From a virus: 26,451 nt of DNA. The first letter of the stretch is position 1. Each line of letters opens with the position of its first letter. Below, one piece after another: positions 692-25,324 of this stretch. The position numbers were made by a program, and so were the translations under genes. Where the stretch lies: positions 13,136 through 39,586 of IMG/VR virus record IMGVR_UViG_3300002242_000001; one strand, given 5' to 3'. Below the pieces are notes generated by a model. It was not told where the DNA came from and ran no database searches. It was given only the letters and a program-made list of their open reading frames with translations.

Positions 692-3600
692 ATGGCAGAA
701 AAGACTTTTAGATCTCCAGGAGTATTCCAACAAGAGGTAGATTTGACGCAGCGCGTTCAAGCGCCACTTGGTACTCCTGCCGGAATAATTGGAACATCTC
801 AAAGAGGTCCCGCCTTTGTACCCGTTACAGTGGGTGGAATGGCTGATTTTAATACAAAATTTGGATCTTTGGATTCAAAGATGTTTGGACCCTATGCTGT
901 TAATGAATTTTTAAGAAATAGAGATGCAGTAACTTATGTTAGAGTTTTAGGTGGTGGGGCAAATTCATCCACTGCAGATATTTCAACAACTGAAACGCAA
1001 GGATCTGTAAAAAATAGCAGGATTTGTACTCGCGCCAGTAGTATCTGATCCTCGACAAGTAAAGGGTGCGACACAGATATTGGCGGCTCGCCACTATGTT
1101 TCTGCGTCTGAAGTCTACTCTCCTCGATACTTCACTGACAATGATTCTTTCCCAGGTGGTGGTGCAGATGGATTTGTTAACCTAGTAAGAGCAGTTATCT
1201 TTACTACGAATACTTCTGCTGTAGGTGTGCTCAGCGGTTCAGAATTTGCTAGCGCTCTCAACACAGACAACCCTGTGGGTGATGCAGCTACCCTTGGTGC
1301 TGAAGGCGCGATGAAGAACAAGTTTAAGCTCTTTATTTCTTCTTCTTCTGATTCTTTTGCAACTTCTGACTCTCAAGCTGGAGTCAAGGTATTCACTGCT
1401 TCGCTGGACCCAAGAAGCAGAGACTATATTAGAAATGTGCTAAACACAAATCCTGATAAGTTTGAAGAGGAGCAACATCTTCTCTATGCTGCTTACGATG
1501 TTGAAGCTTCTTTAGCTGCTGTTACCAATACTGGACAAGCTGTTGCAATGCTGTCAGGATCTTCAAATATATCTACTAATAATACAGCAGGTCAATCATT
1601 CTTAAATTCATTTGGCCGATTTGATACAAGGTACACCACCCCACGAACCACAATGTTTATCTCCCAACCCTTTGGAAACAAAGAGTTCGATCTGTTTCAT
1701 TTTTGAATCTCTTGATGATGGTGCATATTCAAACGATAAAATTAAGGTTTCAATTGCGAATGTTAAGGGTTCTACTGATCCTCTTGATCCTCATGGAACG
1801 TTTACAGTTTTTGTTCGGAAATATGATGACTCTGATAAGTCACCTGAGATTCTTGAGCAATATCCAAAACTGTAACTTAAATCCAGATTCTGAGTCTTTT
1901 ATTGGGGCAATGATCGGTGACCGCCGCCTTAAGTTCAATTTTGATGCGTCCAATGAGAATGAGAGAAAAGTATATGCAGTTGGATCGTATCCTGCCAAGT
2001 CCAATCTTATAAGGGTTGTATTGGGTGATGAGCTTTCAAATGGTGATGTTCCAAAGTCTAGCCTCCCCTTTGGGTTTAAGGGCTTACCAGTACTTAAAAC
2101 AAATGATTCTTTGACTGATATCCCTACTGGGTTTTCAAGAATGTATGCTGACGGATTCCAAGATGGAACTCCCGGGTCTATGGAAATATCAGGATCTATT
2201 CTTCCCCCTGTTCCGTATGTCTTCAAGGTAACAAACGGAGCTGTTTCTGAATCACCTTCCTTCACAGGCGACCCTGGATCACTTGAAAAAGTAGATGCAC
2301 AGATTTACTGGGGCATAAAGACAACTCTTCTTGCACCTGATTCTGAGATTCACCCTACAGAAAATGGAGCTATTGGCGATTCTAACCTAAGATCTAATGT
2401 GGATGGCGGAATTAACAGAGGCCTCCAAGATATGCTCAAATTCTCAGGAATTGAGTTGATGGATAATCTGGTAACAGGTTCAGGTCAAAATACATTCAAT
2501 AATAATAAATTTACCCTTGGTAGAGTTGCGCTCTCAGCCCAGGCCGGGGGATCAGATACAGGCTTCTATAACGATACTGAAATTACAGGTGCTGCTGGAC
2601 CTTACATGAGAGACGCAGCTTATTTAAGAGATGCGGACCTTGACAATGTTTCTTATGTTGCAACTGACGGAACAAGAGCTAATAGAATTACATTCGCAAC
2701 TCTTGCAGCGCAAACATCTTCTGTAACATTTAATAAGTTTACAGACTTTGCCAAGTTTACTAACGTTTTTTACGGGGGCTTTGACGGTCTTAATATCTTG
2801 GACCGCGATGCTTCTAGAATGAACGATAAATCGATATCTGTTGACGAAGGAGCTTCTGCTGCTTTCACGTCCCCAGGCCTTGCTTCAAATGTAGCAGGAG
2901 CAGGTATTGATAACAACGGAATCAATTCTTACAGAGCAGCTGCCCTTACAATGCTAGACCCTTATAGAACAGATATTAATATACTGGCCATCCCCGGTGT
3001 ACGTGAACCATTTGTCACAGACTTTGTCTTAGATAAGAATACTGACTATGGAATGTCCTTCTACGTCATGGATATTCCCGGATATGATTCAAGTGGTAAC
3101 AGGCTTTATGACGACTCCGCAGCAAGGGTTGAAGTTCAAAAAACAACTGCGGTATTCGAAGGAAGAGCAGTTGACAACAACTCAGCAGGAACCTATTTCC
3201 CTGATGTATCAATTGTTGATGACGCGAACAATAGAATAGTAGATGTTCCATCTTCTGTGGCAGTTATGGCTGCTCTTGGTTTTACAGATGCAACTCGTTA
3301 CCCGTGGTTCGCCCCTGCAGGTTTTGATAGAGGCTCTTTGGATAATGTTGTTTCTGCAAAGTCTCGCTTAAATGCAGCAGATAAAGATACACTATATGAC
3401 GGAAGAATTAATCCTATTGCAACTTTCCCACGCCTTCGAGGTGGAAGTCCTGGATACGTGATCTTCGGGCAGAAAACTCTACAGCAAGCACGATCTGCGC
3501 TTGATAGAGTCAATGTAAGAAGAATGCTTCTTGATGTTAAGCGTCAAGTTGTCAATGTTGCAAATAACTTTGTTTTCGAACAGAACACACCTGCGTTAAG

Positions 3601-3820
3601 AAAGAAATTCTTGTCCCAGGTTACACCTCTTCTTGCTGCAGTTCAAGCACAAAGCGGAATTGAAAAGTTTAGAGTGATCATGGATGAGTCTAATAATTCA
3701 GCTGCTGACATTGAAGAAAATAGGCTGAATGGAAAGATTGTAATTGTTCCGACTAGAGCAATTGAATTTGTTTCTCTTGACTTTATCATCACAAGTGCTG
3801 GTGTGAGTTTCGAAGAATAG
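692..3820 (+). CDS. Tail sheath protein, copy 1 (gp18-like; three frame breaks)
   Basis: This is the major contractile sheath subunit, which polymerises around the tail tube and contracts to drive infection. The start ATG has AGGAG at 678-682 with 9-base spacing. The N-terminus carries the sheath pattern GTPAGIIGTSQRGPAFVPV, then FGPYAVNEFLRN and TYVRVLGGG. The C-terminus carries YPWFAPAGFDRG, a QKTLQQARSALDRVNVRRML segment, and PTRAIEFVSLDFIITSAG. All are matched by copy 2 downstream. The gene runs through frame 2 (692-about 1009), frame 3 (to about 1704), frame 1 (to about 1869) and frame 2 again (to 3820). Deleting one base in A6 (1009-1014), T5 (1700-1704) and A4 (1866-1869) restores one 1041-residue protein, far longer than T4 gp18 (about 660 residues). 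The extra length lies in the middle, where sheaths usually carry surface insertions. As written, the longest intact piece is 1703-3820. The breaks look like artefacts because the restored sequence aligns with copy 2 across each one. Confidence 0.9.
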
Positions 3821-3838
3821 ATATATATGAATGATATT

Positions 3839-3842
3839 GGAG
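3839..3842 (+). promoter_or_regulatory. Ribosome binding site deciding the start of sheath copy 2
   Basis: GGAG lies 7 bases before the ATG at 3850 but only 1 base before the in-frame TTG at 3844. The ATG is therefore preferred, giving a protein that begins MAENIPGV, parallel to the MAEKTFRSPGV start of copy 1. Confidence 0.6.
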
Positions 3843-3849
3843 TTTGAGA

Positions 3850-6800
3850 ATGGCTGAAAATATCCCTGGCGTACGCGCACAAGAGATCGACATTTCTAAT
3901 CCTACCCCTAGCGGAATCGAGGGTATTCCTGCAGGTGTGATTGGAACTGCCTTAGAGGGGCCAGCATTTGTCCCTGTCACAGTTTCTAATTTTGCAGATT
4001 TCGAAAATATATTCGGAATGACTGATAAAGTCAAAGAGAAAAGCCTCTTTGGGCCAGTCGCCGCAGAACAGTGGCTTCGAAACTCTAATGCTTTGACATA
4101 CGTTCGTGTTCTGGGAGCTGGCGACGGCAAAACAAGGAACACTAACGATACAGTAACTAGCGCCGGATTTACCGTCGGCGCCGAATTACCTCAAGATACC
4201 GGATTCTTAGGGGCGAACGATTTCGCAAATGAAAACGGGACACTCGGCAGAGCGTATTTCTTGGGCTGCTACATGTCAGAATCAGCCGGATCAACAATAT
4301 TTACAGACGCTGGCATCCAGGTTCATCCCACTGAGCGCGCCCACCCAATTTTGAGAGGCGTGCTGTTCGCTGCTTCTGGAACTTCACTTACACTTTCTTC
4401 GTCTAACGGGGTTGCAGATAATACTCCTGGCACAGACTCTACTACAGCATCCAGCGTCGGATTTATAACAGGTACAGTTAATTTTGACAATGGTTCACCT
4501 CGATTTACCCTGCTTATAAAAGGGCTTAAGAATGATGACAACAATACTATTACATCATCATTGGACCCAACAGACAAGAATTACTTTCCAACTATTTTCA
4601 ACACAGATCCCAGTAAAATCCAGGAAAGAGGTCATCTTCTTTATACACACTATGATGTTTACCCACAGTTTGGCGCGGTAACAGGATCAGGGCTCACACA
4701 AGCTGGACCTGACATGGTCAATAATGCTGCCGCTGATACCTATGTTGGATCATCTGACTGTGTATTTCTTACAACAGGGTCTACAGCAAGAAATACCCTT
4801 TCTGGCGACGCTCCCAATTACGAAGGTTTTCAAAATAGGTTTGATCATGCTAAATCTCCGTGGGTTGTGTCCCAGAAGTTTGGTGGATCCGCTAAGAACC
4901 TATTTAGAATTCATGCTGTTGGTGATGGTGTAATTAAGTCTAAGGCATCTGATCCACTCGGTGCAAATACTAAGTTTAAGATTTCCATTGCAGATATTAG
5001 AAGCGACAAAGAAACATTCTCTCTTTTGGTGAGAGATTTTTATGACCAGGATCCACCTTCTAAGCAGAATGTTCTGGAAAGCTATACAAACCTTAGTTTG
5101 AATCCAAGCTCTGATCGATATATCGGTCGAGTAATTGGTGATAGAAGAACTAGCTATGATTTCGACCAGCCATCTGGGTTCCAAAAAATTATCATAGAAG
5201 GAAAATACGCAAATCGATCTAGAACAATTAGAGTTGAACTCTCACCTGATTTAGAAAATGGCGAGATCGATTCTACAGCATTACCCGTAGGATTCCGCGG
5301 TTTAGATCACTTGATCACATCTGGTAGTAATCCTTTGACTGCTGTTCCAGACAATGATCTACAGTTTGGAACAACTGATCTTCTCAAGCAGGCTATCGAG
5401 CCACCAACACCATTCAGACAGGATCTGCTATTAAATTCAGGATCTTCCACTGTAAGGGCAAATTCAGACCTCATGTGGGGTGTTCAATTTCAAAGAAAAG
5501 TTGAGCTTGCAAATCCAAATTCAGACACCCAGTCTGATAAGACAGTATTAAATCTCACTAAGTTCTTCCCTAACTTCTATGGTGAAAATAGCGCCAACAT
5601 GAACGTAACAACAGGGTCAAATTCAGGTCAAGCAGACGCTGACGGTATCGTTTTCGACTCTGATAGATTTAACAACAATGGATTCTCTCTTGAAAATATC
5701 CAGGTTCGAACTGGTTCAAACGGTTTTCCAGATTTCGAAGCGGATGGTCTAAAAGAGTGGAAATATGTAAGGCAGGGAAATATTGTAGCAAATGAAACTG
5801 CAAAAACTAGAGCGTGGATGGTTAGCGACACTAACGGCAATGCTAAAGCTTCACAAGCGTCTAGATTTTCATTCCCAATTCAGGGTGGTTGGGACGGAGT
5901 AAACGTCTTCAATTCAGATTCTGCTAACTTAAATGAGAACGCAGCTAAGGGTGAAATGGACGATGCCTCTAGAGGTCAAAATGATGGACCTACGGTTTCT
6001 GCATACTTCACTGCCCTGAATGTAATGGCAGACAAATCAGATGTTGACATCCAGTTGTTAGCAATACCTGGAATTCGTCAAGAAACAATCACAGATCAGG
6101 CGATCATCAAGGTCGAAGAGAGATTTGATGCTCTTTATATCATGGATATTGAGGAGAGAGATAACGTAAATACAGTCGTTACTTCTTCGGCGCAAAAAGA
6201 AAAAGTCAGTGTAAGCAATACTGTGACTTCTTTTACAGCTCGATCCCTTGATTCTTCGTTCGCAGCAGCATACTTTCCAGATGTTACTTTGTAATGTAAA
6301 TACAGAAGACACTTAATTCTGAGACGAGAACATTGAACGTGCAGCAAGTACCCGTACGTAGTACCACCCTCAGCTGTGGTCCTTGGGGCATTTGCGGCTA
6401 ACGATCGAATTGCTTTCCCGTGGTTCGCACCTGCAGGATTCACAAGAGGCGTCCTCGGAGGAGTTATCGCTATTCAAACAGCACTGAATAGGGATGATCT
6501 TGAAGATCTTAACGTTGCAGATATTAATCCAATTACAACGTATCCAAATACTGGACCAGTGGTCTTCGGACAGAGAACACTGCAATCTGCAGCTTCTGCA
6601 CTCGATCGAGTTAATGTTCGACGACTACTGATTGACGTCAGGCGCTCGGTCCGCCAAGTTGCTAACTCGATCTTGTTTGAGCCCAACAGAGAGGCAACAC
6701 TGGCAAGGCTTAGCGCTAAAGTTCGTCCAATTTTACAGAATATTCAACAGAACGCAGGTATTGATAGATTTAAGGTTCTTATCGATGCTTCTACGACTAC

Positions 6801-6918
6801 ACAGGCAGATATTGAAAACAACACGATTAGAGGAAAGATTTTCCTCCAGCCGACAAGAACAGTAGAGTTCATCTCTCTTGACTTCGTTGTCACAAATTCA
6901 GGCGTGGAAGGAATTTGA
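3850..6918 (+). CDS. Tail sheath protein, copy 2 (gp18-like; three clustered frame breaks)
   Basis: This is a paralogue of the preceding gene and shares its N-terminal block (GIPAGVIGTALEGPAFVPV, FGPVAAEQWLRN, TYVRVLGAG). It also shares the C-terminal block (FPWFAPAGFTRG, ASALDRVNVRRLLIDVRR, PTRTVEFISLDFVVTNSG). It starts 29 bases after copy 1 ends, so the two are probably co-transcribed. The frame is open to TAA at 6292-6294 and resumes in the same frame by 6364. Between these points the reading passes through frames 2 and 3: three single-base excesses near 6292, 6313-6314 and 6360. Removing them gives YFPDVTLNVNTEDTNSET, then RTLNVQQVPVRVPPSAVVLG, which aligns with the YFPDVSIVDDANN...VPSSVAV region of copy 1. 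The restored length is about 1021 residues. As the sequence stands, the pieces are 3850-6294 and roughly 6376-6918. The middle of the protein diverges from copy 1, so the two could form different parts of a mixed sheath or alternative sheaths. Confidence 0.9.
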
Positions 6919-17908: not shown

Positions 17909-19105
17909 ATGAACGTATGCATCAGCAAAAAAGTACTTGGGACTAGCTTACACTTATTGTCAAAACCCGATGGGTCAATTGAGTGGACTTCTAAAGTTTC
18001 TGGAGGATCTTTCCCTGTAGGTTTTTCAGAGTATGACACTTTTACAACCATTACCAACTTACTCGGAAAAGAGCTGGTTCTTACTCCAGGAAAGAAGTTC
18101 GTTGACATGATGAGATACCTCCAAGTGGAGGATAATATTCCGTGGCATCTTGTTGTCCCAGGGAAAATCTTTAAGGAGTTCGTCCAGAGGATCGTAGATG
18201 ACTCCAGATCACTTTCTACTAGCGACCAGTATGTATACTATCAAAACTACTTGATTAAAGCACAGAGATCAACCCAGAGGTTATCACCAGCTAAGATTGA
18301 CGAGAACGAGTACAAGCGGTTGATGATGGATTCAAAGACGATGAACAAGAACGTTATCCAGAGCTTTACTCCAGAGGCAGGATATGCCAAACGATCCACA
18401 TACGGATTTACATCTACTAATACAGGCCGATTAACTGTACGAAAAGGTCCACAAATTCTTACTCTCAAGAAAGAACACAGGTCTATATTGAAGTCTAGAT
18501 TCCCAAAGGGAAGAATAATTCAACTTGACTATACGAGCCTAGAGCCTCGTGTCGCCCTGTCGATGATCGGACAAAATCCTCCGAAGGATATCTACAATTT
18601 CGTTGCCGAAAACATACTTGATGATCAGGTAGGTAGAGAGTCTGCAAAGCTATTGACTATCGCTCTTCTTTATGGAATGGGGCAGAAAAGAGTAAAAAAT
18701 ATTCTGTCTGGAACTTATCTAGACCCGAGAGAGACAATGAACAAGCTAGATAAGTTCTTCGGTGCCCAGATTATTCGTGAAGAATTATCAAAGCAGGCAG
18801 AGACTGGTTTTATTCAAAATTATTACGGTCGGAACATAAGGGTCAGGAGCGATTCCGAGCATGTTCTTTATAACAATCTTATCCAGTCTACAGCTGTTGA
18901 TGTTGCTTTGCAAGGATTTACGAAAATGATAGATAAGATCTATGAAGAAGAGAAGCAGATGCGACCTATTTTTATTCTGCATGACGCTTTGATTATAGAT
19001 TGCCCACCGGAAGAAGTAGGATTCTTAGATGAGCTTTGTAGCCTCGGAAGCAAAGCCGAAAACCTAGATGCACATTTTTACATTAAGAAGGAACTTGTAA
19101 ATTGA
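17909..19105 (+). CDS. Family A DNA polymerase, polymerase domain only
   Basis: This replicates phage DNA. All core family A motifs are present in order: TSTNTGRLT (residues 168-176, template/primer contact, R174); motif A RIIQLDYTSLEPRVAL with catalytic D207 and E212; motif B RESAKLLTIALLYGMG with R243, K247 and Y255; motif C FILHDALIID with catalytic D359. At only 398 residues it lacks a 3'-5' exonuclease domain. About 165 residues precede the TGRL motif, enough for a reduced thumb. The spacing from motif A to motif B is shorter than in E. coli Pol I (36 versus 49 residues). The glutamate after the motif C aspartate (HDE, E883 in Pol I) is alanine here. The start ATG has no ribosome binding site. 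It heads the replication block and is coupled to the next gene (TTGA overlap). Proofreading would have to come from another gene outside this window. Confidence 0.9.
   Translation: MNVCISKKVLGTSLHLLSKPDGSIEWTSKVSGGSFPVGFSEYDTFTTITNLLGKELVLTPGKKFVDMMRYLQVEDNIPWHLVVPGKIFKEFVQRIVDDSRSLSTSDQYVYYQNYLIKAQRSTQRLSPAKIDENEYKRLMMDSKTMNKNVIQSFTPEAGYAKRSTYGFTSTNTGRLTVRKGPQILTLKKEHRSILKSRFPKGRIIQLDYTSLEPRVALSMIGQNPPKDIYNFVAENILDDQVGRESAKLLTIALLYGMGQKRVKNILSGTYLDPRETMNKLDKFFGAQIIREELSKQAETGFIQNYYGRNIRVRSDSEHVLYNNLIQSTAVDVALQGFTKMIDKIYEEEKQMRPIFILHDALIIDCPPEEVGFLDELCSLGSKAENLDAHFYIKKELVN
19088..19092 (+). promoter_or_regulatory. Ribosome binding site deciding a TTG start
   Basis: AAGGA lies 9 bases before TTG at 19102 but 21 bases before the next in-frame ATG (19114). 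The TTG, overlapping the polymerase stop as TTGA, is therefore the better start. Confidence 0.5.
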
Positions 19106-19692
19106 CTATTGAAATGAATATTGAGAAAATGCAACACGATTATGAGATGTTTAGATCTCTTTGCGAAAAGCTGGGGCATAGATCAAAAGCTGCAGCGGAG
19201 CTTCTTAGTCATATTGAAGAGCGGCTAGTTACCTGCCCATCTTCAGAGCGAAATGAGTATTTTAATTCTTTTCCCGGCGGTTTGCTGGATCATGCCTTGA
19301 AGATTCTTGATGCTTCTTACAAGTTGGTAAAAGCACACGATGCTAAACTCCCGAGGGAGTCCATCATCCTGTGCTCTCTGTTTTGCCTTATCGGAAAAGT
19401 CGGTGACGAAGAAAAAGACCTCTACTTGCCTCAAGATAATGACTGGCGTCGAAACAATCTCGGGGAGAACTATAAGTTTAATCCAGAATTACGTCATATG
19501 AGAGCGACCCATCGATCCCTTTACCTTCTTCAAAAGTTTGGCATCGACCTAACTCAAGAGGAGTGGCTTGCGATCTTGCTGGCCGATGGACTTACCGACG
19601 ACACACGACTTTACTCTATGAAGGAACCAACACTTGCGCTGGTGATTTCCTCTGCTAACAAGCTGGTCATGGCTGCCGCAAGAGAGTCTTAA
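19102..19692 (+). CDS. Degenerate HD-domain-like protein
   Basis: A 196-residue protein that keeps the frame of an HD phosphohydrolase-like fold but has lost the metal-binding dyad. FPGGLLDHALKI (residues 57-68) matches the G-G-L-x-x-H-x-L helix of YhaM-type HD proteins, with H64 retained. The following helix, SLFCLIGKVGD (92-102), has C95-L96 where H-D is expected before x-G-K. Later, THRSLYLLQKFGIDLTQEEW (136-155) keeps H137, LADG (160-163) stands where an H/N-D-G is usual, and VISSANKL (181-188) lacks the final H-x-x-D. Metal-dependent hydrolysis therefore looks unlikely. It starts within the polymerase stop, so the two products are probably made together, and a structural or regulatory role in replication is conceivable. 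The family comparison is from memory. Confidence 0.65.
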   Translation: MTIEMNIEKMQHDYEMFRSLCEKLGHRSKAAAELLSHIEERLVTCPSSERNEYFNSFPGGLLDHALKILDASYKLVKAHDAKLPRESIILCSLFCLIGKVGDEEKDLYLPQDNDWRRNNLGENYKFNPELRHMRATHRSLYLLQKFGIDLTQEEWLAILLADGLTDDTRLYSMKEPTLALVISSANKLVMAAARES

Positions 19693-19730: not shown

Positions 19731-20426
19731 ATGAAGAAACGTTTCACACCCAAGTATGTTAAGCGCGCCACTGACCGACCATCTGGGATCGCACAGACCG
19801 GGGCTGGCCCTATGTCTGCAAAAATCGCACCTCCCGATGCTCACCGACTTGGAAACCTTCCCCAGGATTGGCCCCGATCCGGACAGTCCGGCCAATACAC
19901 AGCCTCAATCATGGGCCGCATGGGTGACGGAAGCTTAGCTTACTACACAGATGAGGATATCGAGGAATTTAGGGATCAAGATGGCCCACCAGGAAAAGCT
20001 GGTAACTACCAGTCGGACATGAAACGTGTATACATTAAAAAAGGCGGCGGCAAAGGAATGATCGGAGCTGCTGGAATACATGAGACTAAGGAGCCAAGCA
20101 TGGAAGAGCAAACCCTACGTGAGCTAATTCGAGAGATGATTCAACAGGAGCTGACTGAAGCCCGTAAGAGAAAAATGCCCGCCGATGTCGCTGCATACTC
20201 AGTTGAGCTCATGGATGAGGACGAGATAGAAGAAGATAATGAGGATATGGATGAGTTCTCCGGCGCCGGCGCAGTTGCTGGATTTTCCTTGCCATTAGGC
20301 GCTTCCAATGAGCCCTCCACATTGAAATCCCGCGGTGACTTCTCTTCTCGAATGTTCGGTGGCGGCCCGATTAAGCTCAACGCCCGAATCCTTTCCCGAC
20401 GAAAAAAAGTAAAAAATACTCGATAG
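19731..20426 (+). CDS. Unrecognised 231-residue phage protein
   Basis: No family recognised. The N-terminal 75 residues are basic and Pro/Gly-rich (KKRFTPKYVKRATDRPSG, LPQDWPRSGQSGQYTASIM). A helix at about residues 125-145 (MEEQTLRELIREMIQQELTE) resembles the L-R-x-x-I-R-E-x-I-x-x-E-L helix found in many small marine phage proteins. An acidic stretch (MDEDEIEEDNEDMDEF) and a basic C-terminus (LSRRKKVKNTR) follow. The alternation of basic, acidic and basic segments with low order is reminiscent of scaffold or virion-associated proteins, but that is only an impression. It sits between the HD-like gene and SSB, and is visibly richer in G and C than its neighbours. No ribosome binding site is seen, so the start may be leaderless or misplaced. 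Confidence 0.65.
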   Translation: MKKRFTPKYVKRATDRPSGIAQTGAGPMSAKIAPPDAHRLGNLPQDWPRSGQSGQYTASIMGRMGDGSLAYYTDEDIEEFRDQDGPPGKAGNYQSDMKRVYIKKGGGKGMIGAAGIHETKEPSMEEQTLRELIREMIQQELTEARKRKMPADVAAYSVELMDEDEIEEDNEDMDEFSGAGAVAGFSLPLGASNEPSTLKSRGDFSSRMFGGGPIKLNARILSRRKKVKNTR

Positions 20427-20493: not shown

Positions 20494-21297
20494 ATGGCAC
20501 TTGATTTTGACGCAATCCGACGTAAGGTTGCACAACTTTCGGGCAACGGCCCTCGGAAGAGTTCTGTTTTTTGGCGCCCAGATGAGGGCGAATATACTGT
20601 CCGCTTGGTGCCGTGGAAGGACAGCGATGGCCAGCCGTTCAAGGAGCGTTGGTTCTATTATAATATTGGTGAGAACCGAGGTATTCTTGCTCCCAAGCAG
20701 TTCGGTAAGCCTGATCCTATTCAAGAGCTGATCAACAAGCTTCGTGACGACGGAACCCCTGAGTCGGCTGAGCTGTGCAAGCGCCTGTACCCCAAGATGA
20801 GAGCTTATGCTCCCGTCGTTGTTCGAGGTGAGGAAGATAAGGGAACCCAGCTTTGGTCCTTTGGTAAGCGTGTATACCAAGATCTGCTTTCTATCATGCT
20901 TGATCCAGATTATGGTGACATCACCGATCCTTTTGAGGGTCGTGATGTTAAGGTAACCATCTCTAAGCAAGCCGGACAAAATTGGGCCACTACTACAGTT
21001 ATGCCTCGCGGTAAGCAGACTAGCCTGACTGATAATGATGAACAGGCAAAGACTTTGCTTGATAACTTGCCCAACTTGGAAGAACTTTACACGCTTGAAT
21101 CCTATGAGGAGATCGAGAAGAAGGTGAATGACTGGCTCAACGGTGAGTCTTCAGTCGAGGGAACCGAGAAGACCACTACTGGTACTACTACGACCAACGC
21201 AACGACTACTACGAGTACTACTGCTTCATCTAATACGAGTGATGGCAAGCAATACACTTCTCTTGATGACGCTTTTGCTGATCTTCTAAACGACTGA
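20494..21297 (+). CDS. Single-stranded DNA binding protein (gp32-like)
   Basis: A 267-residue protein that coats single-stranded DNA during replication and recombination. The N-terminus (LDFDAIRRKVAQLSG) resembles the gp32 cooperativity region. The core contains VFWRPDEGEYTVRLVPW (residues 25-41), FKERWFYYNIGENRGILAPK (49-68), and CKRLYPKMRAYAPVVVRG (95-112), strands typical of gp32-type OB folds. The His/Cys3 zinc cluster of T4 gp32 is absent: only one Cys (95) is present. Residues 224-246 form a Thr-rich linker, and the acidic tail ends SLDDAFADLLND, the usual protein-interaction tail. The stop is 7 bases before the RecA-like gene, and the two work together in strand exchange. GAGG in the last codons serves that next gene. 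Confidence 0.85.
   Translation: MALDFDAIRRKVAQLSGNGPRKSSVFWRPDEGEYTVRLVPWKDSDGQPFKERWFYYNIGENRGILAPKQFGKPDPIQELINKLRDDGTPESAELCKRLYPKMRAYAPVVVRGEEDKGTQLWSFGKRVYQDLLSIMLDPDYGDITDPFEGRDVKVTISKQAGQNWATTTVMPRGKQTSLTDNDEQAKTLLDNLPNLEELYTLESYEEIEKKVNDWLNGESSVEGTEKTTTGTTTTNATTTTSTTASSNTSDGKQYTSLDDAFADLLND
21169..21243 (+). repeat. ACT/ACG/ACC trinucleotide-like tract encoding the SSB linker
   Basis: Mostly Thr codons (ACT, ACG, ACC) interrupted by Gly, Asn, Ala and Ser codons. They encode the flexible linker between the DNA-binding core and the acidic tail. Such tracts can change length by slippage. Confidence 0.6.
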
Positions 21298-21304
21298 GGT
21301 AATA

Positions 21305-22492
21305 ATGGCTAGGAATAAGACGCCTAAAAAGGGTCCCGGGACTGATGATTTCACTTCAGATCTAATTAAGTCTCTAAACAAGGATCACGGAAGTCGAATA
21401 GCCTATAATCTCAGTGTTGATGAGTCTCCTACACATGTGAAGGCCTGGGTCTCTACAGGAATTCGTCAGCTTGATTATATCGCCGCCAATCGAAAAGGCG
21501 GAGGTCTACCTTGCGGACGAATCGTAGAGATCTTTGGTCCTCCATCTATTGGTAAATCTCACATCGCCCTCCAGATCGCTCGTAGTACACAAGCGATGGG
21601 AGGAATCGTGGTGTATATCGATACTGAGAACGGGACATCAGTTGAGAACCTTGGGTTGCTAGGTGTTGATGTATCTAAGCGATTTGTTTTTATCGAGACT
21701 GCTTGCACAGAAGAAGTGTTTGAAGTTGCTGAGTCTACTATCATGAAGGCCCGTGGTTTAAACAAAGATGTTCCAATTACAATTATTTGGGACTCAGTTG
21801 CTGCCTCCTCGCCAAAAGCGGAGCTGACCGGCGATTACGACAAAGACACTATCGGCTTACAAGCAAGATCTATTTCTAGAGGAATGCGTAAGATCACACA
21901 AGTGATCGGTAATACTAATACTTTGTTCATCGCGCTTAATCAAACGAGAACGAAGATCGGTGTAATGTATGGCGATCCTACAACCACACCGGGCGGCATG
22001 GCAATTCCTTTTCACTCTTCCACCCGAATTAAGTTAGGTGCTGGCTCACCCATCAAGAACAAAGATGGTGATGTCGTAGGGATCAATGTCTCAGCCAAGA
22101 CTATTAAGAATAAAGTCGCCCCTCCTTTCCGCTCTTGCCAATTTGAGATTCATTTTGGTGTAGGTGTGAAAGAACATGAGCAGATAACTGATCTCTTAAG
22201 GTCTTCAGGCGATGTCACTGCCGGAGGAAAGACATATTCTGTGGAAGGTGCAGGTGCTTGGAAGACCCTTACAGTTTCTAATGCCAAGACCGGCGAAGTA
22301 GAAGTAGAAAAGAAGTTTACTAAAAGTGGCATGGAAGATGTGCTAAAGAATCCCGAGTTTGCGCCCCATATTGAGGTGATGCTCGAAGAACTTCTTGTCA
22401 AGCAATTCCAGGGAAATGCTGATTTTGATTCTGACTCTTATGAAGAAGTTCGAGCTGTGGCAATGGATTTAGCTGAGGCTGACCTTAAGTGA
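21305..22492 (+). CDS. RecA/UvsX-type recombinase
   Basis: An ATP-dependent strand-exchange protein of 395 residues. Residues 49-77 (VSTGIRQLDYIAANRKGGGL, then PCGRIVEIFG) lead to Walker A GPPSIGKS (78-85, usual bacterial form GPESSGKT). Catalytic Glu is at 108 (YIDTEN), Walker B is TIIWDSVAA with D163, and the signature LFIALNQTRTKIGVMYGDP (207-225) continues into the L2 loop TTTPGGMAIPFHSSTRIKL. The NQ-x-R-x-K-I-G-V and TTPGG-x-A-x-x-F-x-S-x-R pattern is closer to cellular RecA than to T4 UvsX. C-terminal residues 300-395 differ from both. It acts with the SSB encoded just upstream in recombination-dependent replication and repair. GAGGT at 21296-21300 is 4 bases before the ATG, and the stop overlaps the dUTPase start (GTGA). 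Confidence 0.92.
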   Translation: MARNKTPKKGPGTDDFTSDLIKSLNKDHGSRIAYNLSVDESPTHVKAWVSTGIRQLDYIAANRKGGGLPCGRIVEIFGPPSIGKSHIALQIARSTQAMGGIVVYIDTENGTSVENLGLLGVDVSKRFVFIETACTEEVFEVAESTIMKARGLNKDVPITIIWDSVAASSPKAELTGDYDKDTIGLQARSISRGMRKITQVIGNTNTLFIALNQTRTKIGVMYGDPTTTPGGMAIPFHSSTRIKLGAGSPIKNKDGDVVGINVSAKTIKNKVAPPFRSCQFEIHFGVGVKEHEQITDLLRSSGDVTAGGKTYSVEGAGAWKTLTVSNAKTGEVEVEKKFTKSGMEDVLKNPEFAPHIEVMLEELLVKQFQGNADFDSDSYEEVRAVAMDLAEADLK

Positions 22493-22954: not shown

Positions 22955-23899
22955 ATGAATAATCCAACTTTGGTGCTTGACTGCATGAACATCTTTATTA
23001 GGTGTTATGCGGCTAACCCAAAAATGTCTGCGCAAGGATTTCATGTTGGAGGAGTCGTAGGATTTCTCAAAACTCTGCGTGGTGTATGTAATAAATTTTC
23101 TCCGGGTAAGATTATTGCTGTTTGGGAAGGCGGTGGCTCTTCGCGTCGAAGAGCTATCTACCCAGGTTATAAAAAAGGTAAAAAACCAAAGAGGATGAAT
23201 CGCTTCTATGAAGACGATATCCCAGATAGCGAGAAAAATAAAAACTTCCAGATCGCTACTTTGATCTCTATGCTTAAGGATTTACCTATATGCCAAGTAT
23301 ATGTAAATGATTGCGAATGCGATGATGTGATAGGTTATCTGTGTCAGTACACGCTAAAAGATGATAAGAAGATAATAATCTCTTCAGATCAGGATTATTA
23401 CCAGCTCTTGAATGAGAATACACAGATTTACAGGCTTGGAAAAAAAGAGATTGTATCTGCTGATGATGTTTTAGATCTCACAGGAGTGTCTGCTGTTAAT
23501 TACTGTCTTGCTAAATGTCTTGTTGGAGATAGTTCAGACAATATTAAAGGCATAAAAGGCGCTGGCTTTAAGAGCGTCGCCAAACGCTTTCCGGATCTTA
23601 CAAGTGAAAAAGAGTGTAATTTAAGTGAGATTTTTGAAGCTGCTTCTGGGAAGAGAGATGAAAAGATTAAGCTGTACCGAGAGATAGCAGACAACTTTGA
23701 TATCGTGAAAAGAAACTGGCGATTAATATATTTAAATACGAATAATTTATCTGCGGCACAGATGACTCAAATTAATCATGTAATAGATACATTTGAGCCC
23801 CGGAGAAATAAGATAAGTTTGATGAGAGGGTTGATCAAGGTCGGAGTTCAAAGCTTGGACGTTGAAGCTCTCATGTTAAGCATGATCTATGTGAAATGA
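22955..23899 (+). CDS. 5'-3' exonuclease / RNase H of the FEN family
   Basis: A flap and RNA-primer removing nuclease acting on lagging-strand DNA; the 314-residue length is close to T4 RNase H (305). Metal ligands are in the expected order: LVLDCMN (D9), a WEGGGSSRRRAIYPGYK segment (58-73) where the usual VFDG aspartate is Glu59, CECDDVIGYL (120-129; E121, D123, D124), ISSDQDYYQLL (142-152; D145, D147), and VGDSSDNIKGIKGAG (190-204; D192, D195) entering the helix-hairpin-helix. The Arg/Lys-rich segment after GGG is the helical arch region. It begins 1 base after dUTPase. Because the window's polymerase lacks any nuclease domain, this separate enzyme likely supplies the 5' nuclease function that Pol I carries internally. 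Confidence 0.88.
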   Translation: MNNPTLVLDCMNIFIRCYAANPKMSAQGFHVGGVVGFLKTLRGVCNKFSPGKIIAVWEGGGSSRRRAIYPGYKKGKKPKRMNRFYEDDIPDSEKNKNFQIATLISMLKDLPICQVYVNDCECDDVIGYLCQYTLKDDKKIIISSDQDYYQLLNENTQIYRLGKKEIVSADDVLDLTGVSAVNYCLAKCLVGDSSDNIKGIKGAGFKSVAKRFPDLTSEKECNLSEIFEAASGKRDEKIKLYREIADNFDIVKRNWRLIYLNTNNLSAAQMTQINHVIDTFEPRRNKISLMRGLIKVGVQSLDVEALMLSMIYVK

Positions 23900-23914: not shown

Positions 23915-25324
23915 GTGTCTTACGAAGAATCGGGCGCCTCTTTTGGAAGCTATGGAAAAGCATTCCAAGAGAAGATCGTTCAAGGGTTGCTAACTGATCG
24001 CCTCTGGGCTGAGCAGATGTCAGAAGTCATTAATGTTGATTTCTTTGATTTGAAATATCTTAAGTTTTTAGCTGACAGATACTTTAAATATCATGGAAAA
24101 TACAAAGACTTCCCCACACTCCAGTTATTAGTTTCGATAATTAGGGATGATCTTAAAGCAGGTAATGACACTGTTCTTCGAGATCAGATTATTGATTACT
24201 TACAGCGTATTCGACACAACCCAGACATGGGTGATCTTGAGTATGTTAAGGACAAAGCTTTAGATTTCTGCCGAAAGCAAGCATTTAAAGGTGCTCTAGA
24301 ACAAGCTGTAGATCTAATCCAGACTGATAAGTTTGACTCAGTTATGGATCTTATGAGGCATGCTCTGTCTGTAGGTACTACGCCGTCTATTGGTCATGAT
24401 CTTTTTGAGGATATGGACGCTCGATTTATAACCATTAGTCGCCATCCAGTCCCGACTGGAATTGATGTCTTAGATCAAAAAGGAATCTTGAACGGGGGGT
24501 TAGGGCGCGGTGAAATCGGAGTTATAACTGCACCTACTGGTGTAGGAAAATCACACATGCTAGTCAACCTCGGCGCCGCTGCCATAAGCCGAGGGAAAAA
24601 CGTTGTTCATTACACGTTTGAGCTTACTGAAAACTCCACTGGTCTCCGGTACGATTCTAACCTCTGCATGATTCCATCTAACGAGGTTCCTGAAAGAAGC
24701 GACGAGGTAAAAGAGGCATACGAGAAGATGGAGGGCCTTGGTCGGCTCATGATCAAAGAGTATCCTACAGGAACTGCAACAGTTCAAACACTTCGATCTC
24801 ACATCGAGAAGCTGTCCCTCAAAGGGTTTATTCCTGATCTTCTTGTTATCGACTATGCCGATATCATGAGGTCATCGCGACAGTATGAGTCTATGCGTCA
24901 TGAGCTTAAGAAAGTTTATGAAGATCTCCGAAACTTGGCGATGGAAAAGAACTTGCCAATCTGGACAGCCTCACAAAGTAATAGAGAAAGTGCATCTTCA
25001 GATATTGTTGGCCTTGAGAACATGGCTGAGTCTTATGGCAAAGCCCAAGTGGCTGATGTTGTCATCTCTATTTCCCGAAAACCCGTAGAGAAATCCAGTG
25101 GAATGGGCCGACTTTACGTCGCCAAAAATCGTGCTGGTCGAGATGGGATTGTGTTCCCAGTAAAATTAAATACGGCAATGTCAAGGTTTGCAGTAATTGA
25201 GAACACAGAAGAAATGACCCTGGCAGAAGCCCAGGGTAAAAATGAGAATGACATAAAAAAGGTTTTGCAACAAAAATGGAAACAAGTTAGCAAAAGAGAA
25301 AACAATGAAGGCGAAAAGAAATAG
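23915..25324 (+). CDS. Replicative DNA helicase, DnaB/gp41-like
   Basis: A hexameric 5'-3' helicase of the DnaB (RecA-fold, superfamily 4) type, 469 residues. N-terminal residues 15-150 form a helical region (FQEKIVQGLLTDRLWAEQMS) like the DnaB/gp41 N-domain. The motor contains PTGIDVLDQKGILNGGLGRG (180-199), Walker A APTGVGKS (206-213), catalytic E236 (YTFELTEN), Walker B LLVIDYADIM with D313, sensor TASQSNRES (351-359), and the arginine-finger region VAKNRAGRDG (402-411). The C-terminal 60 residues are charged and could bind a primase. The start is GTG at 23915 with AAGGGG (23901-23906), 8 bases upstream. It completes the replisome set, except for a primase and clamp proteins, which are not in this window. 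Confidence 0.92.
   Translation: MSYEESGASFGSYGKAFQEKIVQGLLTDRLWAEQMSEVINVDFFDLKYLKFLADRYFKYHGKYKDFPTLQLLVSIIRDDLKAGNDTVLRDQIIDYLQRIRHNPDMGDLEYVKDKALDFCRKQAFKGALEQAVDLIQTDKFDSVMDLMRHALSVGTTPSIGHDLFEDMDARFITISRHPVPTGIDVLDQKGILNGGLGRGEIGVITAPTGVGKSHMLVNLGAAAISRGKNVVHYTFELTENSTGLRYDSNLCMIPSNEVPERSDEVKEAYEKMEGLGRLMIKEYPTGTATVQTLRSHIEKLSLKGFIPDLLVIDYADIMRSSRQYESMRHELKKVYEDLRNLAMEKNLPIWTASQSNRESASSDIVGLENMAESYGKAQVADVVISISRKPVEKSSGMGRLYVAKNRAGRDGIVFPVKLNTAMSRFAVIENTEEMTLAEAQGKNENDIKKVLQQKWKQVSKRENNEGEKK

Follow-up and report, generated by a model that had tools for sequence, protein, structure and literature searches.

A YhaM-type HD-fold protein with a lost metal site, encoded beside a short family-A DNA polymerase in phages

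Locus and gene order

The window (the whole stretch of DNA analysed, 26,451 nucleotides) corresponds to G000:13136-39586; the record as a whole spans 78 kb and belongs to a tailed phage that carries contractile-tail genes. Its replication genes are arranged in the order POL-HD-orf231-gp32-RecA-dUTPase-FEN-DnaB-NrdA, which is kept in close IMG/VR relatives, POL being a short family-A DNA polymerase and HD the HD-like gene discussed here. The phages carrying both are for the most part marine. The features of the locus, all on the + strand, are as follows.

17909-19105, +: short family-A DNA polymerase, 398 aa (Pfam DNA_pol_A, 9.6e-15)
19088-19092, +: Shine-Dalgarno-like AAGGA, 9 nt 5' of the TTG, read in the sequence
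19102-19105, +: TTGA overlap of the HD start TTG with the polymerase stop TGA, read in the sequence; overlap forms also occur in relatives
19102-19692, +: YhaM-type HD pseudoenzyme, 196 aa (PHROG matches, AlphaFold model, Foldseek, family profile)
19291-19293, +: H64, the sole core metal ligand retained (alignments)
19384-19389, +: C95-L96 replacing the H-D dyad (alignments)
19582-19584, +: A161 replacing H; some relatives that keep the core intact have N or S here (alignments)
19648-19659, +: S183-x-x-N186 replacing H-x-x-D (alignments)
19731-20426, +: conserved acidic protein (orf231) between HD and the ssDNA-binding protein; order conserved in relatives
20494-21297, +: T4 gp32-like ssDNA-binding protein (SSB; Pfam gp32, 1.5e-12)
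21305-22492, +: RecA-like recombinase (Pfam RecA, 5.6e-57)
22955-23899, +: 5'-3' exonuclease, FEN (Pfam 5_3_exonuc_N, 4.2e-24)
23915-25324, +: DnaB-like helicase (Pfam DnaB_C, 4.2e-23)

The first-pass annotation had placed the HD start inside the polymerase stop codon, and this is borne out: TTG 19102-19104 overlaps TGA 19103-19105 and is preceded by the AAGGA motif. As read from the sequence, TTG 19102 is the likeliest start; starting instead at the in-frame ATG 19114 would put 8 nt between the polymerase stop and HD. The next clade has a POL/HD overlap of another form (TAATG, TGATG), and the L196 and L216 junctions independently show a TTGA overlap, there combined with a strong AAAGGAG ribosome site, which supports TTG starts in such an arrangement.

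For the acidic protein, family searches (PHROG, Pfam, NCBIfam) gave nothing above chance. The protein and its equivalents in relatives (L124:1920-2486, L125:2317-2856, L128:3593-4180) are acidic and otherwise divergent, with a recurring peptide like (I/V)AG(Y/F)(S/T)LPLGA. Elsewhere in the window (692-6918) two tandem tail-sheath-like genes are each split into several ORFs (692-1048, 1080-1706, and 1703-3820 for the first, 3844-6294 and 6376-6918 for the second), which suggests either that the record contains frameshift errors or that there are two paralogous sheath genes.

The short family-A polymerase

The polymerase consists of the polymerase domain only, with motifs A (D207), B (R243, K247), and C (H358-D359) intact, and its catalytic residues are invariant across 17 relatives, in the same genomes as broken HD genes. 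Neither a 3'-5' nor a 5'-3' exonuclease domain was detected in it by family search. A separate DEDD exonuclease acting as its proofreader was considered and rejected, since RNase_T and DNA_pol_A_exo1 were unmatched in the window's record and its close relatives; RNase_T was matched in one distant record only, the records being fragments.

A DnaE-type Pol III alpha is encoded in 18 of the 29 records searched (six of 13, and 12 of a further 16), and the misses are mostly short fragments. As DnaE is co-encoded in these phages, the short PolA is likely to be an additional polymerase rather than the replicase, and its co-occurrence with DnaE and FEN suggests that it probably serves gap filling, primer replacement, or repair alongside DnaE. 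The first-pass annotation had hinted that the HD-like protein might be a processivity or regulatory subunit; to read this as a processivity subunit of the replicase does not suit these phages. A beta clamp as an alternative processivity factor was sought in 13 records and none was found. In G000, outside the window (60888-64835, equivalent to L029:888-4835), DnaE is split into two ORFs by a frame break around 62469-62663, compared with a single ORF of 1297-1314 aa in relatives; a sequencing error, an intron, and an inserted element are the candidate causes.

The slot occupied by the short polymerase is probably that of divPolA1, the extra divergent PolA without exonuclease activity that Yutin et al. 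2024 (PMC11348598) describe in phages with a regular polymerase as well. Judged from sequence, the window polymerase shares the traits of that class, i.e., an active PolA palm, no active 3'-5' exonuclease, the presence of a second polymerase, and a conserved replication neighbourhood. Flavobacterium phage immuto, a divPolA1 phage, has the same downstream order (PolA-...-SSB-RecA-FEN-DnaB-Nrd), and its PolA (gp001), the one published divPolA1 member compared, is weakly similar to the window-type polymerase (E 1e-4 with a 17-sequence profile). Unlike the window, immuto lacks an HD gene at this position, and its intact HD lies at 77 kb; gp002 was considered as a vanished HD and rejected, as the HD profile did not match it. 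An HD or phosphohydrolase partner is not mentioned in the main text of Yutin et al. 2024 (PMC11348598).

HD fold and the lost metal site

The window HD protein matches PHROG phosphohydrolase families (1.3e-6 and 3e-5), but on its own gives no significant Pfam match and no NCBIfam match, whereas relatives 41-43% identical to it, encoded beside the same polymerase and with an intact motif, pass Pfam HD PF01966. An AlphaFold model built from 26 relatives (pLDDT 81, pTM 0.82) has YhaM (9h3f) as its top Foldseek match in the PDB, with a probability of 1.00, TM 0.61, and a modest E of 1.5e-3; weaker PDB fold matches include other HD proteins. The only plausible sequence-level PDB match of the HD family profile is the solved YhaM/Cbf1 structure 9o7t, at a weak E of 0.0016. 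Profile search and structure prediction thus both uphold the YhaM-type HD fold proposed in the first-pass annotation.

The modelled fold places the protein in the HD-domain metallohydrolase superfamily, but of the H...HD...D ligands H64 alone remains. It is therefore an HD homologue by fold and not an HD enzyme by motif, and is filed here as an HD-fold pseudoenzyme. It is likewise not a YhaM exoribonuclease, a class of about 325 aa defined by an N-terminal OB fold followed by HD, having 196 aa and no OB domain. Compared with YhaM/Cbf1, the Gram-positive 3'-5' exonuclease (PDB 9h3f, 9o7t; about 313-325 aa), the likeness lies in the HD fold, for which it is the best structural match, in the H...HD...D motif of the intact phage relatives, and in the inactivating D193A change, natural in some linked relatives; the window clade differs from it by lacking the metal ligands and by its place in a phage replication operon. 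The intact HD relatives match NF010007 only partially, far under its cut-off, and by fold alone the sister HD enzymes would be assigned to the nuclease type. The Mn-dependent 3'-5' nuclease activity is predicted to be absent from the window protein.

Alignments show that the window HD has lost H95, D96, H161, H183, and D186, which are now C95, L96, A161, S183, and N186. Position 95 is C or S (S in L001). The three groups of changed metal positions noted at first (C95-L96, A161, and the last H-x-x-D) are thus real, although that list was slightly incomplete, as position 137 is H in place of the D of most intact relatives. In addition, F54 replaces a histidine present in all intact relatives. 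Position 161 alone is not diagnostic, because S or N also occurs there in relatives that keep the whole core quartet.

The same substitutions at the dead site are found in every close relative identified (L001-L014, L016, L032-L037). Pairwise dN/dS of HD is 0.038-0.092, similar to that of the polymerase, FEN, and SSB, which indicates strong purifying selection; the gene is free of frame breaks in the window clade and diverges more slowly than POL (71% versus 41% identity in L011). Since the substitutions are shared by all close relatives and the dN/dS is that low, the loss is neither chance nor sequencing noise but, on these sequence comparisons, ancient and constrained.

Linkage to the polymerase and graded loss in relatives

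About 80 relatives were gathered via the polymerase rather than via HD. An HD gene lies downstream of the exonuclease-less PolA in about 59 of the 66 distinct polymerase relatives. The two genes overlap at 15 of 57 distinct junctions and are within 60 nt of each other at 36 of the 57; in many relatives HD lies 0.3-1.7 kb from the polymerase, in several with another gene between. At least four independent lineages have no HD gene next to the polymerase (L179/L180/L182, L186, L193, and L220/L230 are among them), and no copy was found elsewhere on those contig fragments. The partnership is therefore not obligate: the neighbourhood with a short PolA, which was to be checked for constancy, is near-universal and not invariable. 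Among the loci searched there was no natural POL-HD fusion. In two loci (L186:3026-3872, L187:5037-5582) a repetitive protein with WRRNGxLHRxDGPAxE-type repeats takes the place of HD after the polymerase.

The core metal quartet was scored as H64, H95, D96, and D186. At least one of these ligands is lost in 45 of the 54 non-redundant polymerase-linked HD proteins, the nine intact ones being L131, L132, L133, L181, L183, L188, L194, L195, and L202. By contrast, the 15 HD relatives encoded away from the polymerase all keep the quartet (before de-duplication, 72 of 72); the peptide patterns by which they were fetched omitted all four core positions, so that their intactness was not selected. The broken forms are graded: D186 is lost and the dyad kept in L124 and L130, among other examples; D96 is changed to A together with H64 to Y in L125, L127, and L128; the HD-to-HA change (D96 to A) as such also occurs in L184, L201, and L226; L126, L129, and L178 have R-N at the dyad and no ligand left; and the window form, with H64 alone, is a further type. 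The broken forms also lose pocket residues outside the metal site, at positions 54, 108, 162, and 168.

In the HD tree D96 requires seven changes, H64 four to five, and D186 two to three, while the overall intact/broken label requires two to three; these numbers also hold on a tree rebuilt without the scored columns. Some long branches make the exact numbers of losses approximate, and the state of D186 is less secure for the rows that diverge most. The independent polymerase tree requires at least three changes of the label, and in it L128 (broken) and L133 (intact) are fully supported sisters. These trees indicate that the metal ligands were lost repeatedly and separately, presumably from an intact ancestor, a direction suggested by the intactness of the unlinked relatives and of the superfamily. 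HD proteins with an active dyad beside unrelated genes, which the first-pass annotation named as a finding against a partnership, do exist, but they belong to an HD clade of their own that is more remote and the neighbours of which gave an uninformative PHROG search. The dyad is kept beside the same polymerase in L131, L132, L133, and L195, so the loss is derived and the idea of a partner is not refuted.

The polymerase-unlinked HD relatives (L072:7926-8708, L038:2747-3526, and similar ones) are extended at the C terminus, and the last residues form an acidic hydrophobic peptide (LFDELFGDS, GLMNMLNDL) that resembles clamp-binding tails.

Association of the two proteins

Genomic and evolutionary association of HD with the polymerase, as expected of an accessory subunit, was found: in addition to the linkage, POL and HD distances remain correlated when SSB and RecA are controlled for (partial r 0.66, p 0.0005). 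For the neighbouring genes SSB and RecA the value is much the same (partial r 0.65), so that linkage alone could explain the POL-HD correlation. A POL-HD chain of L195 read through the intervening stops was modelled with pLDDT 92.8 and matches Klenow/Bst Pol I; its pTM of 0.71 falls between the values estimated here for no placement of HD (about 0.6) and for its confident placement (0.78 or more). Near-universal linkage together with decay of the metal site only in the polymerase-linked group would be expected if HD had been kept as a non-catalytic partner. The first-pass view of HD as a polymerase partner is supported in part; the partnership is not obligate, and the polymerase concerned is probably not the replicase.

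Function of the dead HD protein

The leading hypothesis, to which we give about even chances, is that the window HD is a non-catalytic YhaM-type descendant working with the exonuclease-less PolA encoded upstream. An ancestral intact HD, which like YhaM was probably a Mn-dependent 3'-5' nuclease, would have been encoded with this short PolA, as in the pairs that persist. The metal ligands were then lost several times independently, as the trees show, although the gene kept its place next to the polymerase, and the dead HD of the window clade has been held under the strong constraint seen in its dN/dS. As the ligands are lost and the gene is nevertheless retained and constrained, the retained function is probably not hydrolysis. 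Most likely the protein would stabilise or regulate synthesis by binding to the polymerase, to the primer 3' end or ssDNA, or to both. In favour of such a role, the D193A variant of S. aureus YhaM is reportedly inactive yet still able to bind RNA (PMC11347170); D193A is the HD-to-HA change natural in the six relatives listed above. A more tentative extension, which we hold to be possible but doubtful, is that the intact YhaM-like HD is an in-trans proofreader of the exonuclease-less PolA in some phages and has repeatedly turned into a dead structural subunit in others, including the window lineage. In the window lineage itself a proofreading role is rejected, the metal site being gone.

Alternatively, a dead YhaM might grip ssDNA or RNA-DNA 3' ends at primers or gaps with no polymerase complex, the pair being kept for co-expression. 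The replication operon context, with SSB, RecA, FEN, and DnaB, would suit such a protein, as would the RNA binding reported for D193A YhaM and the earliest descriptions of YhaM relatives, which were of DNA-binding proteins linked to replication (PMC11347170). This reading is nevertheless unlikely, as HD distances, after controls, follow those of the polymerase more closely than those of RecA, and the loss of positions 54, 108, 162, and 168 in the broken forms argues against a fully kept substrate groove.

Two further alternatives are each improbable. The dead pocket might bind a dNTP or a host signalling nucleotide, in regulation or counter-defence, with the polymerase linkage incidental, much as HD enzymes of jumbo phages have been assigned to nucleotide-targeting counter-defence (PMC7824862); but the window protein has no match in the PADLOC defence library, the pocket ligands are lost differently in different lineages, which is unexpected of a conserved ligand site, and the linkage is to a replication operon. 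Altered chemistry through the remaining H64, K99, D102, Q111, D112, and R138 would fit the sharing of these residues and of the YLPQDN(D/E)W segment by intact and window-clade proteins, but H64, Y108, and Q111 are missing in other broken lineages, no alternative metal site is apparent, and C95 is S in L001. Finally, decay of the gene under relaxed selection, en route to the loss already seen beside some polymerases and in keeping with the many losses of activity, is very improbable, being contradicted for the window clade by dN/dS, by the unbroken frame, and by an HD identity above that of the polymerase, although it could hold for single long-branch lineages such as L225.

Comparable transitions and significance

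A partnership of the dead HD with the short PolA would resemble that of archaeal PolD DP1 and the eukaryotic B-subunits, in which a proofreading nuclease subunit of one lineage is a dead scaffold in another (PMC4996933), although these have a calcineurin-like phosphoesterase fold and serve other polymerase families. The mitochondrial Pol gamma accessory subunit and T7 thioredoxin likewise show a family-A polymerase being served by a one-time enzyme or by a redox protein, but they have class II aminoacyl-tRNA synthetase or thioredoxin folds and are experimentally proven subunits; Pol gamma-beta has been lost in nematodes (PMC4419789). No paper joining an HD domain, a pseudoenzyme, and a phage polymerase was found in the open-access literature.

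The observation on the HD-like ORF is confirmed and is stronger than first stated. If the leading hypothesis is true, intact, partly broken, dead, and absent HD genes form a natural series beside one polymerase lineage, showing the passage from an enzyme to a non-catalytic polymerase subunit, while comparable transitions (eukaryotic B-subunits, mitochondrial Pol gamma) are known without such graded intermediates. The proofreader-to-scaffold reading, if true, would be a further independent case of the DP1-to-B-subunit type of transition, caught at several stages. The hypothesis would also suggest what phrog_5889, a PHROG family without an assigned function, and the divPolA1-like second polymerases do, and would make the question approachable with small expressible proteins.
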